DNA of 64,000 nucleotides, from assembly GCF_001984155.1 (NCBI RefSeq), contig NZ_MTQO01000033.1, positions 1 through 64,000 on the forward strand, read 5' to 3'. The DNA is from Actinosynnema sp. ALI-1.44. GTDB taxonomy: Bacteria > Actinomycetota > Actinomycetes > Mycobacteriales > Pseudonocardiaceae. Every line of letters begins with the position of its first letter. Positions within the stretch are counted from its first letter, which is position 1. This document shows, piece by piece, positions 30,149 through 37,300 of the stretch. The notes under the pieces are model-generated. The model made no database searches and was not told the DNA's origin. It was given only the letters and a program-made list of their open reading frames with translations. A program made the position numbers and the translations under genes.

Positions 30149-30739
30149 GTGTCACTGCTGTCCTGCGCGGTCAGGATTCTGATCGTGGACGACCTGCACT
30201 TTCTCCGGTGGCGGGCCAAGTCCGGAGTGGAGATCAGCAACCACTTCAAGTACATCGCGAACGAGTTCCCGGTGACCTTGGTGTTCGTCGGGGTCGGTCT
30301 GTCCGAGCGCGGCCTGTTCCGTGAGGGCGACACCTACACCAACGCGGTCCTGGCCCAGACCGGGCGCCGCACCACCCGCCTGGACATGCGCCCGTTCACC
30401 GTCGACACCGGCACTGGGCGGCGCGAGTGGCGGCAGATGCTGCTGGCGATCGAGCAGCGCCTGGTGCTGGCCGGGAAATATCCCGGCATGCTCGCCGACG
30501 ACTTGTCGGACTATCTGTTCGCCCGCAGCACCGGCCACATCGGCTCGCTGATGACACTGATCAACCGCGGCTGCCAGCGAGCCGTCCGGACCGGAACCGA
30601 GCACCTCAACCAGGACCTGCTCGACGGGGTGAAGAACGACGCCGCCGCGGAGACCGCCCGCAGCGAGCTGGAGAACGCCTTCGGCGCCCGCCGGATCACC
30701 ACCCGCACCGCGCCGAAGACCCGGCGCCGCAGCGGATGA
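30149..30739 (+). pseudogene. tniB: TniB/TnsC-like AAA+ transposition ATPase, 5'-truncated
   Basis: The frame joins family-like sequence at about 30170: VRILIVDDLHFLRWRAKSG contains the Walker B segment, and EISNHFKYIANEFPVTLVFV, then GLFREGDTYTNAVLAQTGRR follow as in TniB/TnsC regulators. The N-terminal half with the Walker A loop is absent, cut at the junction with the phosphatase gene. TniB links the target-site protein TniQ to the transposase TniA. The stop overlaps tniQ's start (ATGA). No tniA is present in the window, so the element cannot move alone. Confidence 0.75.
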
Positions 30740-33294
30740 ACCGGCCGGACACCTTGCCGATCCGCCTCCACCCGATCCCGGGCGAGGCCCTGGACTCCTG
30801 GTTCGCCGCCCTCGTTTACCGGCTGCATACCCCGCTGGGATCGCTCCTGCCCGACCTTGGCCTGCGCCACCGGGACAACGACGACGCACCGGCTGACTGG
30901 ACGGTCCTGCTCCGGCCGGCGGAAATCGCCACGATCTCCACCGCGACCGGCGTCGATCAGCTGCTCATCGAGACGATGACGCTGACCAGGTTCGACGGCG
31001 CCGCTCTGCTGATCGACCCGGCCGCCCGGCGGGTCCGGCGAACCCAGCTCTGGGGGCGCAACTCCGGGTCGCGCTACTGCCCCGACTGCCTGGCCGACAC
31101 CGGCGGCCGCTGGCTGCTGAGGTGGCGACTGGGCTGGTCGTTCGCCTGCACGACCCATCAGCGACTGCTCGCGGACGTCTGTCCCGCATGCGGGCGTCTT
31201 CCCCGGCGCCTCACCGAGGTTCTGACACCGGGCCGATGCGTCCACCCCGTCGGTGACGACAAGCACGGCCGGTCCCCGGACCGCTGCGGACACGACCTGA
31301 CCACCATGCGCCCGCTCCGGTTCCAACGCGACGATCCTGTGCTCACCGCTCAACGTCTTGTCGACGAGGCCATCGAGACGGGGACAGCGAGGTTCGGCGT
31401 CTATGCCGACGAACCCACACCGGCGATCACCGCGCTCGCCGACCTGCGTGCTCTCGCGAGCCGTTTTCTCCGGTATGCCCATCTGGACGACGTGACCACC
31501 ATGCCGGACGATCTGCTGGCCGCCTGCACCCGCGCCCTGGCGCAGCCCAGCAGCGGTCATCCTTCCTCGCGAGTCGGCACACGGCACGGATTCATGGCTC
31601 CGCGCCACGCCGTTGTCGCCGCGGTCGGTGCCACGGCCGCGATCTCGATCCTCAACACGGGCACCATCCGCGACGCGGGACACGGCATGCGCCGGGCGAT
31701 CGGAACAGCGCGGCGACGCGGTCACAGCGTCCGGGTCTCGAACGTGGACAAATGGGGCCAAGGAACCAGCGTCACGCTGAAAGCCATCCAAGTCTCCGCG
31801 CTCGGTCCGTTCCTCAGCCCCAGCGACCAGCTTCGCTATCGATCCGGCGCCACGAAACCCCATCACCAGGTCCCCGCGAACACCGCGTCCGCGCGACGGC
31901 GTCACGTCCCGACCATGCTCTGGACCTCATGGGCGCTGCGGTTACGTCCGGAGAAGCGCTTCTATCTCCACACTTTGCGGCTCGCCTTGTCCGCGGCGCT
32001 TCTGCTGCCAGGCACGCGGCACAACCTGCCCGACACGGCCACGATCCTGCGCATCGCCGATACTCACGATCCCTCCCGTGTTTTCGGCGCCCTGCATACG
32101 GATCCGCACTGGTCCGACGTCCTCGCGGCACTGACACGGCTCGCCGACTACCTCGACGATCACACCATCCCCATCGATTACGACCGGCGCCGCAACCTCG
32201 ACTACGCCGCCCTGCTTCCCGAGGGCCAGTGGCACCACATCTGCCTCCAGAGCCGCTTTCCGCCGGGACAACGCCGCCGCCTGGACCTCGCACGATGCCT
32301 GCTCTTCGAGAAGATCAGCATGATGCCCGCCGACCTGGCGCCCGCCTCGTTTGCCATTGACACGCCCTACAAACGCGACTGCCTGCTCGAATTCGCCTCG
32401 CCGATCACGCCCAACCTCGCCCTGCGCCTGAACGACGCGGCCCAGAAATTCCTGGCACAGCAGGGCATCCACGACGAACCAGTCGAATGGCAGCCGCCCC
32501 TCGGGCTGCTCGACGGTCTCCGCCTTCCCGGAGACGATCCCGAACACGTCGACATCCCCACGCTGCACCGACTCATCCGCGAGGATGACAGCGCGCTCAC
32601 CACCGCAGCGCACCAGCTCGGCACCTCCCTCGACATTGTTCGTCACCTGCTCGAACAACATCCCGCACCGCCGCGACCGGTCACGAAGTCCCAAGCACGA
32701 GCCAAGGGCCTGATCCGCGTCGACCTTCGCGAGAAGCTCCCCCCGCAACGCCTCAACGACCTCTACCACGATCAGCAGCTGACACTGCGAGAGATCGGCA
32801 GCCGATTCGGCGTCACCAAAAATACCATCGGACGCCTGCTCGACGACTACGACATCAAACGCCGTGAAGTCCCACTGCCAGGTTCAGGAGCCGTCATCGA
32901 TCGCGACTGGCTCTACGACCAATACGTCACCCAGCGCCGCACCCTCGCCGACCTCGCCCGGGAAAAAGGAATGAGCCCAGCGAACATGCGGCGCTGGGCA
33001 GGAAAACACGACATTCCGCTCCGCCCACGCGGCGGAGGAAGCCACAACGAAGTCCGCCGCACGCTCGACCAGGCGGCCACAGCACCGAAAGCTCTTCGAC
33101 CAGCACTCACCGGGACAGGAGCCTGGACCCGGCTAAACAAGTTCGCTGCCACGGTCGGCCATCCGACGCTCACCATCGCGGCCGCCGCACATGGCTTCGA
33201 CTGTCCACATTGCTCCGACAGATCAACCGCCTCGAACACGACCTCGGCGGACAACTCCTCGCACGCGCCGAACGAAACCAGCCCATGCGGCTGA
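30736..33294 (+). CDS. tniQ: TniQ-family transposition protein
   Basis: 852 residues from ATG 30736, overlapping the tniB stop. The TniQ domain fills the first 160 residues: LHPIPGEALDSWFAALVYRL, then a zinc site YCPDCLADTGGRW ... CTTHQRLLADVCPACG. The long C-terminal part is helical with DNA-binding-like segments (LTLREIGSRFGVTKNTIGRL near residue 685; RTLADLAREKGMSPANMRRW). TniQ proteins choose the target site. The annotated frame ends at 33294, but near 33190 an indel separates it from a better tail, RLSTLLRQINRLEHDLGGQL with MRLTPLGREI, a winged helix like that of LysR proteins, ending at TGA 33362. The last 35 residues of the annotated frame are therefore doubtful. Confidence 0.8.
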   Translation: MNRPDTLPIRLHPIPGEALDSWFAALVYRLHTPLGSLLPDLGLRHRDNDDAPADWTVLLRPAEIATISTATGVDQLLIETMTLTRFDGAALLIDPAARRVRRTQLWGRNSGSRYCPDCLADTGGRWLLRWRLGWSFACTTHQRLLADVCPACGRLPRRLTEVLTPGRCVHPVGDDKHGRSPDRCGHDLTTMRPLRFQRDDPVLTAQRLVDEAIETGTARFGVYADEPTPAITALADLRALASRFLRYAHLDDVTTMPDDLLAACTRALAQPSSGHPSSRVGTRHGFMAPRHAVVAAVGATAAISILNTGTIRDAGHGMRRAIGTARRRGHSVRVSNVDKWGQGTSVTLKAIQVSALGPFLSPSDQLRYRSGATKPHHQVPANTASARRRHVPTMLWTSWALRLRPEKRFYLHTLRLALSAALLLPGTRHNLPDTATILRIADTHDPSRVFGALHTDPHWSDVLAALTRLADYLDDHTIPIDYDRRRNLDYAALLPEGQWHHICLQSRFPPGQRRRLDLARCLLFEKISMMPADLAPASFAIDTPYKRDCLLEFASPITPNLALRLNDAAQKFLAQQGIHDEPVEWQPPLGLLDGLRLPGDDPEHVDIPTLHRLIREDDSALTTAAHQLGTSLDIVRHLLEQHPAPPRPVTKSQARAKGLIRVDLREKLPPQRLNDLYHDQQLTLREIGSRFGVTKNTIGRLLDDYDIKRREVPLPGSGAVIDRDWLYDQYVTQRRTLADLAREKGMSPANMRRWAGKHDIPLRPRGGGSHNEVRRTLDQAATAPKALRPALTGTGAWTRLNKFAATVGHPTLTIAAAAHGFDCPHCSDRSTASNTTSADNSSHAPNETSPCG

Positions 33295-33359
33295 CGCCCC
33301 TCGGACGAGAGATCATCACAGCGCTGCGGGAATGTGACCACGAGGAAATGCCGTCTCGG

Positions 33360-33446
33360 TGAGACTGGATCCGGTGACGGCGTTGAGACAACGACGAACA
33401 CCCTGGTCATCCAAGATCAACATGTCGCGAGCGATGAGACCCTACA
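33360..33446. repeat. Right end of the TniB/TniQ transposon (TGAGAC boxes)
   Basis: Three TGAGAC boxes at 33360, 33384 and 33435, the last in the terminal sequence TGAGACCCTACA (33435..33446). The layout and intervening sequence (AAGATC, ACATGTC) recur at 36005..36094. Tn7/Tn5053-type elements end in TGT...ACA and carry such arrays as transposase binding sites. It directly follows the tniQ tail. Confidence 0.7.
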
Positions 33447-33451
33447 AGAAG

Positions 33452-33665
33452 TGTAGGGTCTCAAATTTGATGGCGGATTCTCAGCAGCGGTGGCGGGCCA
33501 CTGGCGGATCCGCCATATGAATGAGATGTGGTGGTTCCCGCTGGCCGTTCTCAGCGGAAGTTGCAGAGTCTCACCGGTGTGACATGTCGTCTCACCACAG
33601 CGGCGGATTCTCAACCGCCCGGCGAGCACCGCCGATACGCGCCGTACGAAGGCATGCCTGTCTCA
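33452..33665. repeat. Left-end array of TCTCA boxes in the cargo element
   Basis: GTCTCA or TTCTCA occurs at 33458, 33478, 33548, 33568, 33589, 33608 and 33660; most neighbours are 19-21 bases apart, the spacing of tandem TnsB/TniA sites. GGCGGATTCTCA is repeated exactly at 33472 and 33602. The longer left end compared with the right one fits the asymmetry of Tn7-like ends. Confidence 0.65.
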
Positions 33666-33851
33666 ACACACTTTGTCGTCTCCCTGGTCAGGGGCGGCGC
33701 ACCGCGCACTGATCATCGAGACTATTGCGGGCTCCTCATCCGCGCATGATCATTGTCGGCTCGGACACCCATCCGTTGTGTCTTTACGGAATGTCATCCC
33801 GCACGTCAGGCGTGGCCGCCCCCGACTCGATCGATGAGATAGGACATCGGC

Positions 33852-34130
33852 GTGCCGGTGACACTGCGACGCGACAATGTCCGGGTGAGAGACGAGCGAA
33901 ACGACCTGAACATGTACCGGTCGGCCTTGGCGAAGGCGGCTGAGGGCCGCACCGACCGGCTTGCCAGTGTCGATGAGCGCGTGCACTGGACGACGGTGCA
34001 CCGTTTGCTGACCAAGCACAGCCCTACTGAGGGGGAACCCAACGTATGCGCCGATTGTGGCGGGGCGTGGCCGTGTGGCGTGGTGAACGGGGCCGTGACA
34101 GACCTGCGGCCGGGACCCGCAGGCAATTGA
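33852..34130 (+). CDS. Small protein with a CxxC...WPC motif (92 aa)
   Basis: GTG 33852 starts a frame whose second half, VHWTTVHRLLTKHSPTEGEP with VCADCGGAWPCGVV, matches small actinomycete proteins with a HxP-C-x-x-C-x-G-x-W-P-C signature, probably a metal-binding ribbon. The function is unknown. No good ribosome binding site is seen at 33852, and an internal ATG (about 33912) is possible. It lies inside the cargo element between its left end and the MerR gene. Confidence 0.5.
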   Translation: MPVTLRRDNVRVRDERNDLNMYRSALAKAAEGRTDRLASVDERVHWTTVHRLLTKHSPTEGEPNVCADCGGAWPCGVVNGAVTDLRPGPAGN

Positions 34131-34297
34131 AGGCAGCGCGGTGCAACCGGGCTCGTGGAGCCGCTGATGATGCACCGAAGTCCGACCTCGGCCACCGGTG
34201 CCGTCCTCGACGACTGACTCGCCGACCACCTCAGTCTTCCTGAGGACCGAAGTTCTCCTCCACGAACAGCTCCGAGGCTCAGCAGACCCGACATCGG

Positions 34298-34669
34298 TTA
34301 GGAGGCTCGGATATTGCGGCGTACGGCGTCGAGGTAGTCGGTGATGGCTTGGTGGTTCTTGGTGAGGCATTCGATTTTTTCGGCCATACGATCGCGTTCG
34401 CGTTCGAGCGTTGCGACCATGTCTGGCGTGACGTAGGGCATGTGGATCGTGCGGGGGGTGTTCAGGCAGGGCAGGATCTGCTTGATGATCCGTGTGGGCA
34501 GCCCTACGTCGAGCAGGCCTCGTACCTGGAGAACCCGGTCAACGACGTACTCCTCATAGTCCCGGTATCCGTTGGGCAGTCGATTTGACTCGATCAGTTC
34601 CTGCTCCTCGTAGTAGCGCAGCAACCTCATCGGAGTCTGCGTGCGCGTCGACAGCTCACCGATCCGCAT
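34298..34669 (-). CDS. MerR-family transcriptional regulator
   Basis: 123 residues. The winged HTH is typical (MRIGELSTRTQTPMRLLRYY, EEQELIESNRLPNGYRDYEE), followed by the dimerisation coiled coil (LERERDRMAEKIECLTKNHQ) and a short tail without conserved metal cysteines, so the inducer is probably an organic compound. It is divergent from an MFS exporter with 92 bases between the starts and a MerR-type spacer promoter in that gap, which suggests it controls both genes. Confidence 0.92.
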   Translation of the reverse strand: MRIGELSTRTQTPMRLLRYYEEQELIESNRLPNGYRDYEEYVVDRVLQVRGLLDVGLPTRIIKQILPCLNTPRTIHMPYVTPDMVATLERERDRMAEKIECLTKNHQAITDYLDAVRRNIRAS

Positions 34670-34719
34670 ATCCCTATCCTCGCCCTCTGTGGCTGGCGTT
34701 CTGTGACTCGGCGGACACC

Positions 34720-34761
34720 GAATTGACCTTCACACTAATGTCACCCATCGATGATAAGGCT
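34720..34761 (+). promoter_or_regulatory. MerR-type operator/promoter of the MFS gene
   Basis: TTGACC at 34723..34728 is the -35 box and lies at the left edge of GACCTTCACACTAATGTCA (34725..34743). This resembles the left half of MerR operators of the type GACCTTGACAC-n-GTGTC; the right half is weaker. A -10-like GATGAT (34750) lies at an unusually long spacing, as expected for MerR-activated promoters. Transcription could begin at or just before ATG 34762, giving a leaderless mRNA. Confidence 0.5.
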
Positions 34762-35967
34762 ATGACACGACCAGATACTCTGCCACCTCGCTCGACAACG
34801 AACGCCCGGCTCCCGCTGGCAGGTCTTCTGGCCTTGGCCACCACTGGATTCATTACGCTCCTGACCGAGACGATGCCCGCCGGGGTGCTTCCCGAGATGA
34901 GCCGGGACCTGAGTGTGAGCGAGAGTGCTGCCGGGCAGAGCGTCACCGTCTTCGCGATCGGGGCGATTCTCGCCGCGATCCCGCTCACCAAGGCGACGAT
35001 CGGCTGGCCGCGCCGACACCTGCTGCTGGTGGCGATCGCAGGATTCGCGATCGCCAACACCGTCACCGCGCTCTCCGAGAGCTTCGCACTGACGCTAGCC
35101 GCCCGGTTCCTCGGCGGCATCGTCGGGGGGTTGCTCTGGGCGCTGTTGGCCGGGTACGCGGTACGGATGGTTTCCCCACGTCAGCGTGGCAAGGCACTGG
35201 CGATCGCGATGGCGGGCGCAATCGTTGCCCTGTCCGTCGGAGTTCCTGCTGCGGCGCTTCTGGCCAAGCTCGTCGAGTGGCGATACGCGTTCGGGATCCT
35301 GATCGTCCTCACGCTGGCGTTGATCGTGTGGGTCATCGCGGCGGTGCCGAACTTCCCCGGACAGCCCAAGGGCTCACGGCTCCCGCTCACCCTTACCTTC
35401 CGCATTCCCGGCGTAGCGCCCGTGCTCCTCGTGACCCTCACGTTCGTGCTCGCCCACAGCATCCTCTACACCTACATCGCCCCGTTCCTCATGCCGCTGG
35501 GCATGGCAGGTCAAGTCGACGCCGTGCTGCTCACCTTCGGCCTGGTGTCGCTGGTGAGCATCTGGATCGCCGGAGCGCTCGTCCATCGACACCTGCGCCT
35601 CCTCATGATCCTCGCGTGTGTGCTCTTCGCGACGTGCACGCTGTTGCTCGGCATCTTCTCCGGCGTGCCTACGCTCGTCTACGCCAGCGCAGCGCTCTGG
35701 GGGCTCGCGTTCGGCGGCACCTCCACCCTGCTGCAGACCGCAGTCGCCGAAGCAGCAGGCGACGCCGGCGATGTCGCCCAAGCACTCCTCACCACCGGAT
35801 GGAACGTCGGAATCGCCGGTGGTGGCGTCATCGGAGGCCTTGTCCTCAGCGGATTGGACGCATCCTGGCTGAGTTGGGTCGCGCTCGCGCTGCTCGTCCC
35901 TGCACTCGCCACTGTGCTCACGGCACGCAAACACGGGTTCACCAAGGGAGAACTCGGCAGCCGCTAA
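34762..35967 (+). CDS. MFS transporter, drug:H+ antiporter type (DHA1)
   Basis: 401 residues with twelve predicted membrane helices. The first helix region is LPLAGLLALATTGFITLLTE, and MPAGVLPEMSRDLSVSESAA is typical of the AraJ/PbuE/Cmx group of exporters. The helix 2-3 loop motif is degenerate, while VEWRYAFGILIVLTLALI and LLTTGWNVGIAGGGVIGGLV fit the fold. It would expel a toxic compound or sugar by proton exchange. ATG 34762 is preferred over 34738 because of the promoter position. It is divergent from and probably induced through MerR, and forms the cargo of the element 33452..36094. Confidence 0.9.
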   Translation: MTRPDTLPPRSTTNARLPLAGLLALATTGFITLLTETMPAGVLPEMSRDLSVSESAAGQSVTVFAIGAILAAIPLTKATIGWPRRHLLLVAIAGFAIANTVTALSESFALTLAARFLGGIVGGLLWALLAGYAVRMVSPRQRGKALAIAMAGAIVALSVGVPAAALLAKLVEWRYAFGILIVLTLALIVWVIAAVPNFPGQPKGSRLPLTLTFRIPGVAPVLLVTLTFVLAHSILYTYIAPFLMPLGMAGQVDAVLLTFGLVSLVSIWIAGALVHRHLRLLMILACVLFATCTLLLGIFSGVPTLVYASAALWGLAFGGTSTLLQTAVAEAAGDAGDVAQALLTTGWNVGIAGGGVIGGLVLSGLDASWLSWVALALLVPALATVLTARKHGFTKGELGSR

Positions 35968-36004
35968 ACCACCGCTGCCCGCGATCCAAGAAATGCCACG
36001 ACTT

Positions 36005-36094
36005 TGAGACTGTCCTTCAGGACCCTGCGGTGAGACAACGAGCAAAGCCGCAGGTCACTAAAGATCCACATGTCATCGACGCTGAGACCCTACA
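36005..36094. repeat. Right end of the cargo element
   Basis: TGAGAC boxes at 36005, 36031 and 36083 (spacings 26 and 52, against 24 and 51 in the neighbouring element's right end at 33360..33446). The shared blocks TGAGACTG, GAGACAACGA, AAGATC, ACATGTC and the terminal TGAGACCCTACA show common origin. Confidence 0.7.
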
Positions 36095-36155
36095 CGCGCG
36101 TTGACCATCGACAACGACTGACCAACCCGAAGACCGTTGAACACGAAGGAAAGCG

Positions 36156-36310
36156 ATGCAGACCACCACGTCGCCTGGCAGATTGCATGCAGAGATGGTC
36201 GAGAGGATCCGGAAGGCCGGGCACGCGCGACGAGGCGAGGTCGAACGGGTTCTGCGCGCCACGCCGCGTCACGAGTTCGTGCCGGAGGCCGACTTGGCGA
36301 TCGCCTACGA
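36156..36310 (+). pseudogene. Methyltransferase (PCMT/FxLD-system-like), N-terminal fragment
   Basis: ATG 36156 is preceded by GAAGGAAAGCG. The first 50 codons, including LHAEMVERIRKAGHARRGEV, VLRATPRHEFVPEADL and AYDPWQAV, match the N-terminus of isoaspartate-methyltransferase-like enzymes found with FxLD-type lanthipeptides. The similarity stops at about 36310. The frame stays open to 36653, but that part has no protein character. The SAM-binding domain is therefore missing. Confidence 0.55.
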
Positions 36311-36718
36311 CCCGTGGCAGGCGGTACTCACTCTCTGCGCCGAGGCTGGACCGGATGCGGCAGATGATCGGGAGGCTGTGCTGAAGCTTTGTGAAGAACT
36401 CGGTGTAGCAACGGAAACGAATGTCCTTGGTTCACTTCTGTTGGAGGCTGTTGCCGGGTGCGTGGCTGTGCAGCGTTTGGAGCAGCCCCGCCTGCGCGGG
36501 GACGACCCCAAGACCTCACAGTCCTCACCGACGAGGAACGTGATCAACCTACCGGAAGATGATCACTTTCGACTCAATATCGGCACGCACAGGCGCCGAG
36601 GTGCCGATCGTGGCGCGGGAAGGTGCCGACGGGCTGCCCGGTTCTGCGGCTAGAGCTGGCCGACACGGCCAGTTCGGCGACACGCGTCGATAGTGCCTTG
36701 TCGGGTGGATGAGAATGG
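36311..36718. other. Gap with one CRISPR-repeat-like hairpin
   Basis: No gene is recognised in these 410 bases. The only distinct signal is the GC-rich hairpin at 36479..36507 listed separately. Confidence 0.35.
36479..36507. repeat. Solitary type I-E CRISPR-repeat-like sequence
   Basis: GGAGCAGCCCCGCCTGCGCG followed by GGGACGACC has the length, the GC hairpin (CCCCGC/GCGGGG) and the GGGACGAC end of actinobacterial type I-E repeats. No second copy follows after about 32 bases, and no cas genes are in the window. It may be a lone relic or chance. Confidence 0.3.
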
Positions 36719-37300
36719 CTAGAGCAGTTCGTCGTCCTCCAGCTTCGACAACCGCATCAGCAGATCCGGCCGGTGCGCGAGCAGCTCCTCGCGTGCCGGC
36801 CAGCGGAGGCGGTGGGCCTCGTCGAGGAGCGTCTCCGGATACTCCGAACTCGCAACCCCTTTGTTCGTCAACGCGCACCAGATCTCGGCCACCTGTTCGG
36901 CGCTCAGCACCTCGCGGGCGAGCAACCTCTCCGCGAGGCCCAGGAACCACCTGGGTTCTTCCGTCTTTACCAAGAGCCGCAAGAAGAGCGCGAGGTTCTC
37001 CGGCCCGCGCGGATCCTTCGCGACCATCAGGCCGGTCACCTTGTCGACGGCATACTCCGCCGTTATCAGCTCATCGTTGACCAATAACTGGAGGAGGTAC
37101 ACCTCAAGCTCAGCGGCCACCACGTGATTGAGGTCGAGGTACGGGCTCTTGGCGAAGTCGACGAGCCGGTCGTACACGACCATCCGCCTTTCCACCCCAG
37201 TCTGGTTGACGTGGAACAACGATGCGTGGAGCAGGTCAGCGGCGACAGATCGGAACTGATCGTCACGATGCATGTAGTGCGGAATCAGCGCGGTGAACAA
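36719..37300 (-). pseudogene. Helical hypothetical protein, N-terminus cut by the IS element
   Basis: 193 codons of good protein character, mainly helices (VAADLLHASLFHVNQTGVER, VVAAELEVYLLQLLVNDELI, NLALFLRLLVKTEEPRWFLG, RLLAREVLSAEQVAEIWCAL). No family is recognised; the helix pairs resemble HEAT/TPR-like scaffolds. The coding frame continues to the right up to the IS end at 37302 without a good start (TTG 37300 has no ribosome binding site). The 5' part therefore appears to have been removed by the insertion. Confidence 0.6.

Follow-up and report, generated by a model that had tools for sequence, protein, structure and literature searches.

The 64,000-nucleotide stretch of Actinosynnema sp. 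ALI-1.44 DNA analyzed here (contig NZ_MTQO01000033.1; hereafter the window) contains, between positions 30156 and 36094, what appear to be the remains of one Tn7-like element abutting a second one. Element 1, left-truncated near 30156 inside tniB, consists of part of tniB, a full tniQ, and a right end (R-end) that ends at 33446. Element 2 (33452 to 36094; 2,643 bp) has both a left end (L-end) and an R-end and carries a merR gene and a gene for a major facilitator superfamily (MFS) exporter, with no transposase. Left and right are named by window coordinates; L and G followed by three digits are locus and genome labels, G000 being the host genome. The features are as follows, with bit scores from hidden Markov models (HMMs) of the ends.

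30156..30739, plus strand: 3′ part of tniB, where element 1 is truncated, encoding roughly the final 190 residues of a TnsC-like AAA+ ATPase (PF05621, E = 2.3e-4, a match that misses the family cutoff)
30736..33294, plus strand: tniQ, 852 amino acids, TnsD-like target selector (PF06527, E = 6e-19)
33355..33446, plus strand: R-end of element 1, with three TGAGAC boxes and terminus TGAGACCCTACA (family pattern; right-end HMM, 65 bits, this copy being included in the model)
33447..33451, no strand: AGAAG, the 5-bp gap where the two units meet, read directly from the window
33452..33541, plus strand: L-end of element 2, with TGTAGGGTCTCA, TGGCGG three times, the palindrome TGGCGGATCCGCCA, and inverted TGAGA (left-end HMM, 54 bits, this copy being in the model)
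33543..33850, plus strand: box-rich conserved segment inside the L-end, apparently noncoding (77.5% identical to L061, 10385 to 10693)
34298..34669, minus strand: MerR-family regulator, cargo (PF13411, E = 3e-12)
34762..35967, plus strand: MFS exporter, cargo (PF07690, E = 2e-44)
35995..36094, plus strand: R-end of element 2 (right-end HMM, 75 bits, this copy being included in the model)
36095..36099, no strand: right flank CGCGC, a mismatch with AGAAG

A 12-mer search of the window found TGAGACCCTACA on the plus strand at 33435 to 33446 and 36083 to 36094 and on the minus strand at 33452 to 33463, with AGAAG filling the space between the first two (33447 to 33451), exactly where a first-pass annotation of the sequence had placed three transposon ends and a gap. 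The three TGAGAC boxes that it described in each R-end were likewise found, at 33360, 33384, and 33435 in element 1 (spacing 24/51) and at 36005, 36031, and 36083 in element 2 (spacing 26/52), and the alignment of the two R-ends scored 91, far above the maximum of 57 in 200 shuffles. The L-end of element 2 also contains seven TCTCA boxes between 33459 and 33661, as well as the repeated word TGGCGG with its palindrome, none of which the first-pass annotation had pointed out. The 12-mer alone was near chance: it matched the window 4 times at up to 2 mismatches against 2.75 expected, and the 11.7-Mb host genome held 3 exact copies, those of the window only, compared to 2 of a reversed control pattern.

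The end sequences recur in a family of Tn7-like elements

HMMs of both ends were built from copies in the host family and then retrained with junction loci. The full right-end pattern was found in 18 of 297 host-family genomes, at 26 places, and 0 times in every control column; one of these places, L082 at 9523, is a misread left end beside dnaB. Relatives of TniQ were present in 22 of the 297 genomes. When 84,980 species genomes were scanned for junctions of an R-end, a gap, and an L-end, 64 stretches were obtained, 57 of which had at least one end recognized by the HMMs (which were partly trained on them). The junction hits outside Actinomycetota (L107, L109, L128, L136, and L151), together with L122 and L155, had no HMM-recognized end and were rejected. 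The R-ends of other units were mostly 73 to 81% alike to that of the window. The left ends carry a word that varies between elements and is repeated, with a palindrome, within one; across 82 left ends this gave a score of 4.63, whereas 50 rounds of shuffling never exceeded 1.26.

Complete relative units encode TnsA-like, TniA, TniB, and TniQ proteins, with TnsA-like homologues in L062, L063, L064, L108, L190, L191, and others, and both TniB and TniQ in full in L062 (from Saccharothrix deserti) and L066. The TniA of the relatives has rve and Mu-transpos_C domains and is similar to TnsB chains, 7svw among them (E = 1.8e-20). The TnsA-like protein matched PF08722 at E = 3e-4, below the Pfam cutoff, and is named TnsA-like in NCBI plasmid annotation. 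Its gene adjoins the L-end in complete relatives; the L-end therefore corresponds to the right end of Tn7, where the tnsA-side end is by usage the right end. On plasmids, TniA relatives (E up to 1e-60) occurred in 94 of 72,556 records, the genus names listed being all actinomycetes. The Rhodococcus plasmid element L239, which has tnsA, tnsB, tniB, and tniQ, is bounded by ends (TGTAGGGTCTC...GAGACCCTACA) that the end HMMs recognized. An Rfam search of four loci gave no match, and a search of TniQ against PDB sequences gave nothing at E 0.01. On sequence grounds, these are the ends of a large family of Tn7-like elements found in actinomycetes (TnsA-like, TniA/TnsB, TniB/TnsC, and TniQ). The repeats in the multibox ends, with termini TGT...ACA, are probably transposase sites to which TniA would bind.

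Target duplications, unit sizes, and cargo

The ends, sought in relatives as the first-pass annotation had proposed, recur in many genomes and are accompanied there by target duplications. Among the 40 units with both ends, counted after dropping 9 duplicate loci, 16 had identical 5-bp flanks, compared to 3 of 1,560 mismatched pairs. Further duplications outside this count flank an element in G279 (GCCGA) and L242 (GCTCG). This evidence bears on a regulatory or chance reading of the window, in which the facing 12-mers would be a terminator-like hairpin and the boxes operator sites. TGAGACCCTACA-AGAAG-TGTAGGGTCTCA could indeed give a 12-bp stem, and genome-wide the 12-mer alone is no rarer than chance; but ends of this kind delimit units that have 5-bp duplications, which already contradicts a hairpin, R-ends often lack a facing L-end (10 of 24 in the host family), and cargo genes point in either direction. 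We regard this reading as having virtually no chance of being right.

The first-pass annotation noted that the AGAAG gap has the usual target duplication length of this class. The gap fits such a duplication, but element 2 in the window is without one because its right flank, CGCGC, differs from AGAAG. Two explanations for these mismatched flanks were weighed. First, recombination between the R-ends of two copies may have changed the right flank, so that the ends of element 2 come from different insertions. That 24 of the 40 units have no exact duplication is consistent with this, as is the exchange of end regions between copies reported for Tn7706 in the accessible text of its description (PMC12915292). 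However, an exact 12-mer search of the host genome gave no donor copy (only the three occurrences), and R-ends of different units resemble that of the window only to the extent given above. We consider such an exchange possible, while leaning against it. Second, 30156 to 36094 may have moved together as a single composite, using the lost left end of element 1 and the right end of element 2, with AGAAG as an old internal duplication and CGCGC as the outer one. An 8.3-kb stretch in G265, which has an internal right end and outer GGAAG flanks (the left on one contig and the right on another), provides a precedent; the stretch is found at three contig ends, with differing right flanks in two. Composite movement would also account for the mismatched flanks of the window, but in chains of units 0 of 9 other outer pairs match, so that composite transposition was rejected as a general rule, and the left end required for the comparison in the window is lost. 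It seems rather unlikely here.

Unit length ranged from 232 bp to 15 kb, with a median of about 1.7 kb; since most loci are 8 kb, short units are favored in this range. At the lower extreme are five end-only units (L074, 9854 to 10085; L108, 681 to 912; L148, 5615 to 5846 and 5851 to 6085; and L153, 5046 to 5283). They are 232 to 238 bp long, have no open reading frame of at least 60 amino acids, and show exact 5-bp duplications in three of five cases; they are miniature inverted-repeat transposable element-like forms of this end family. The cargo families include MFS proteins, APH-type phosphotransferases, an NhaA antiporter, an esterase with glyoxalase-like and Lrp-type proteins, a sigma factor, TetR, and HEAT and WD40 proteins. 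For several of the cargo proteins, Pfam gave nothing.

Array heads behind dnaB

A common target on the right was rejected, as the 100-bp right flanks had no sequence shared by eye. The left flanks were therefore looked at, and dnaB was found there. Ten of 19 array-head rows have the 3′ end of dnaB as their left flank, with the tnsA-side end proximal; a protein pattern also picked out 8 of these, and 2 were recognized by eye. Four of the 19 have an end-like CTACA in front of them and could be false heads; L164, which is at dnaB, is one of these. Among loci picked by the junction alone, dnaB was found in 7 of 10 rows. The distance from the stop codon to the L-end was 5 to 14 bp in 13 of 14 distinct loci and 28 bp in L164. 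It was 5 to 10 bp in the 7 loci not chosen via dnaB and 8 to 14 bp in the 6 loci fetched by a dnaB pattern, whose weight is limited by the 29-bp span of that pattern. The pattern of dnaB plus an L-end was rejected as evidence by itself: it occurred in 12 of 394 genomes of the class compared to 29 of 394 for the reversed control, and 6 of the 12 were dnaB by eye.

Occupied and empty sites were both found. Among Streptomyces loci downstream of dnaB (best matches, 199 genomes), an L-end of at least 32 bits was present in 5 of the 23 that were readable out of 30, one of the five being the query. On plasmids, an NCBI-annotated dnaB stands directly before the L-end in two of six regions, with the L-end 7 and 14 bp after the stop. 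The dnaB site is empty in the host itself (G000) and in G854; over the queried 400-bp tail of dnaB, G854 and the occupied G459 are 98% identical. By eye, the gene after dnaB in G854 and G000 resembles the gene after the R-end in G459 and G197. One Streptomyces locus, L208, has a variant L-end (TGTGGGATCCCA...) behind dnaB in which TCCCA boxes replace TCTCA; exact patterns therefore undercount occupied dnaB sites.

Units stack in tandem

Of the 26 right-end places in the host family, one at a contig end was set aside, as was the misread left end. Among the other 24 R-ends, 14 abut another L-end and 10 have no facing L-end. The junction gaps (n = 61) were 4 bp in 22 cases, 5 bp in 17, and otherwise within 0 to 10 bp. 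Judging from the duplications of neighboring units, the left unit, the one nearer the array head, is the younger in both L130 and L148, of which only L130 is at dnaB; those in L074 are compatible with both age orders. The idea that left-end words act as immunity barcodes was rejected: 20 of 21 adjacent pairs differ, but their mean distance of 3.76 is close to the random value of 4.03 (standard deviation, 0.34).

Such stacking could also arise by self-targeting, in which the resident L-end is itself the target and new units insert beside it wherever it is located. Insertion next to a resident end of the same kind is familiar from IS30 and IS21. The proportion of R-ends abutting an L-end and the younger left units agree with this, particularly in L148, as does the fact that 9 of the 19 array-head rows lie away from dnaB. 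On the other hand, self-targeting does not predict the short and similar distance between dnaB and the array head, which is seen even with a single unit (L076), and repeated insertion at one site explains the junctions and the age order at dnaB equally well. We judge self-targeting improbable.

TniQ and the choice of target

Between the dnaB elements L063 and L064 and the elements found elsewhere (L066, L190, and L191), the TniAs are 72 to 84% alike whereas the TniQs are only 29 to 34% alike. Some close TniAs share a left-end word (CTGCACT in L064 and L190; CTTCATT in L062, L063, and L191), and L066 has a similar TniA with a different word. The TniQ of the window falls on the side of the tree that includes dnaB elements. 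Before plasmid elements were added, window-side elements were at dnaB in five of five cases (L063, L064, L108, L197, and L198) and clade-X elements were elsewhere in three of three; L197 and L198 share one TniQ and were fetched via the dnaB pattern, which leaves three of the five unbiased. A rule of one target per TniQ clade was rejected, being broken by four plasmid elements. The window's own word, TGGCGGA, is carried by L243, a dnaB element whose TniQ is 41% identical to that of the window, and by L244; other species thus have transposases that serve ends of this kind.

Two further flanking sequences were noticed. L190 and L191, which belong to another TniQ clade and come from different genomes, have in common a 127-bp homologous segment that ends about 40 bp left of the L-end. 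Read in the opposite direction, it may be the 3′ portion of a gene for a small membrane protein, and Pfam gave no match for these clade-X target gene pieces. Because the segment is common to both, their TniQ clade may home to another gene, and the segment is a possible second homing site. In the Rhodococcus plasmid elements L239, L241, and L244, whose TniQs are 77 to 87% alike, similar text like ATCGGAAGGCCAG was seen by eye tens of bases left of the L-end; this is perhaps a plasmid-specific target.

State of the window copy and its surroundings

The first-pass annotation had proposed a TniA/TniB/TniQ element beside a nonautonomous MerR-MFS unit. The transposase-less cargo unit stands, but for element 1 neither TniA and TnsA nor a left end is present in the window. 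The TniB fragment matches the L062 TniB well only from about residue 197 to 384 (of 385), and the DNA similarity of element 1 to L062, L064, L065, and L152 begins at 30156. The window TniQ, with its nearest relatives at 58, 53, and 52%, was the sole match in its own genome. A search of that genome for an intact cognate TniA found none, yielding a 34%-identical fragment whose second piece has two TGA stops, plus a short piece. The merR-MFS block (34275 to 35990) is 93.5% identical to that of L077, where an R-end abuts the block. Since L077 is from another genus, this points to horizontal movement of the block.

Along the left flank, similarity to two relatives ends at about 29317, short of the array, and the right flank (36095 to 37300) had no syntenic match in 8 genomes of the genus, giving short and CRISPR (clustered regularly interspaced short palindromic repeat)-repeat matches only. 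An empty site lacking exactly 33452 to 36094, which the first-pass annotation had suggested looking for, was not found, the right flank having been checked in the same 8 genomes. A single CRISPR-type repeat, GGAGCAGCCCCGCCTGCGCGGGGACGACC, lies at 36479 to 36507, 385 bp from the R-end. It is close to host array repeats on contigs C10 and C51 (period of about 61 bp), and no second copy at up to 6 mismatches was found in the window. No cas family was found among the proteins sent to Pfam, and no dedicated cas search was made. A segment of about 310 bp starting like TGTCCGTTCTCA, the box-rich segment of the window, stands behind the L-end in the window, L069 (partly), and L070 (twice) and without an L-end in L061. 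It may be the end of a second, related element family.

Interpretation

With a probability of roughly 0.8, we read the window locus as a decayed piece of an array in which Tn7-like (heteromeric-transposase) elements stood in tandem, from a family that would home behind dnaB and stack there. TniQ would recognize the 3′ end of dnaB in the way that TnsD recognizes that of glmS, with insertion at a short fixed distance beyond it. As dnaB would keep its site after each insertion, the next unit would land in front of the last one, often 4 to 5 bp from its end. Units without a transposase would be mobilized in trans by TniA, TniB, and TniQ. The array in the window is probably a rearranged, displaced relic that is now immobile by itself: it is away from dnaB, its left end is lost, and its right flank is unmatched, while the host's own dnaB site is empty and the genome yielded no intact cognate TniA. 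Recombination between copies or composite movement as in G265 could account for the mismatched flanks and the lost position.

Several observations weigh against this reading. First, with its left end missing, the window's own target is not readable. Second, nearly half of the array-head rows (9 of 19) are not at dnaB. Third, plasmid elements L239, L241, L242, and L244 have TniQs on the window's side of the tree (40 to 43% identical to that of the window), and they are not at dnaB. Fourth, the 24 units without an exact duplication include that of the window (AGAAG/CGCGC), and the dnaB-adjacent units of G197 (CCGAC/GCTCA) and G459 (CAGGT/CAGGC) have none either. Finally, the right end behind the age order in L130 is weak, at 21 bits.

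If both the site at dnaB and cassettes mobilized in trans are real, they would constitute a common actinomycete hotspot of gene acquisition beside an essential replication gene, undescribed in the literature searched, with cargo that includes exporters, phosphotransferases, an antiporter, and regulators. It would also become testable how, in spite of target immunity, Tn7-like elements can accumulate at a single site and how TniQs on related transposases switch target genes.

Comparison with known systems

A dnaB attachment site for Tn7-like elements was not found in the literature searched, which mostly excluded subscription journals; this is a weak sign of novelty. In the accessible text of two papers with both "dnaB" and "Tn7-like transposon" (PMC10991518 and PMC8987985), DnaB serves as a negative control or is mentioned in an unrelated context, and these were set aside. 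Statements about cited papers refer here to the accessible portions of their text. Tn7706 of Rhodococcus erythropolis NI86/21 is 19.4 kb long with 19 genes and occurs in many copies, partly on plasmids (PMC12915292). It resembles the present elements, by description only, in having tnsA, tnsB, tniB, tniQ, inverted repeats, and end-region exchange between copies, whereas that text mentions neither dnaB nor stacked short units (PMC12915292). Benler et al. (2021) described a Tn7-like clade dominated by Actinobacteria, with no member experimentally characterized, in which ends were found, as here, via arrays of transposase sites (PMC8649781). They noted that one element may move into or next to a resident one, giving multiple ends, and adjacent insertion of Tn7-like elements is already known (PMC8649781). 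Their search was tnsB based, with transposase-less units outside it, the likeness to the present elements is by description, and "dnaB" has 0 occurrences in the accessible main text (PMC8649781).

The elements resemble Tn7 at attTn7 in having TnsA, TnsB, and TnsC with a TniQ-family selector, arrays of end sites, and, in many relatives, a position just behind the 3′ end of a conserved gene. Tn7 likewise makes 5-bp duplications, and its tnsA-side end is proximal to glmS. They differ in that the apparent site here is dnaB and the units stack in tandem. TnsD reads the glmS 3′ end, and Tn7 strongly inhibits a second insertion where it is already present (PMC11406308).

The arrays also recall integrons, here too with small one- or two-gene units in a row and, apparently, the newest at a fixed end. 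Integrons use a tyrosine integrase and attC cassette sites and hold one- or two-gene cassettes in a row, with the newest at one fixed end. In contrast, complete units here have a DDE transposase, 5-bp duplications, and two different ends per unit. Tentatively, and with the odds against so full a picture, the system may be a transposon-built actinomycete counterpart of the integron, in which dnaB-homing machinery stacks one- or two-gene cassettes (down to the 232-bp empty form) in trans, newest first, and the words mark the cognate transposase and let neighbors with different words escape target immunity.

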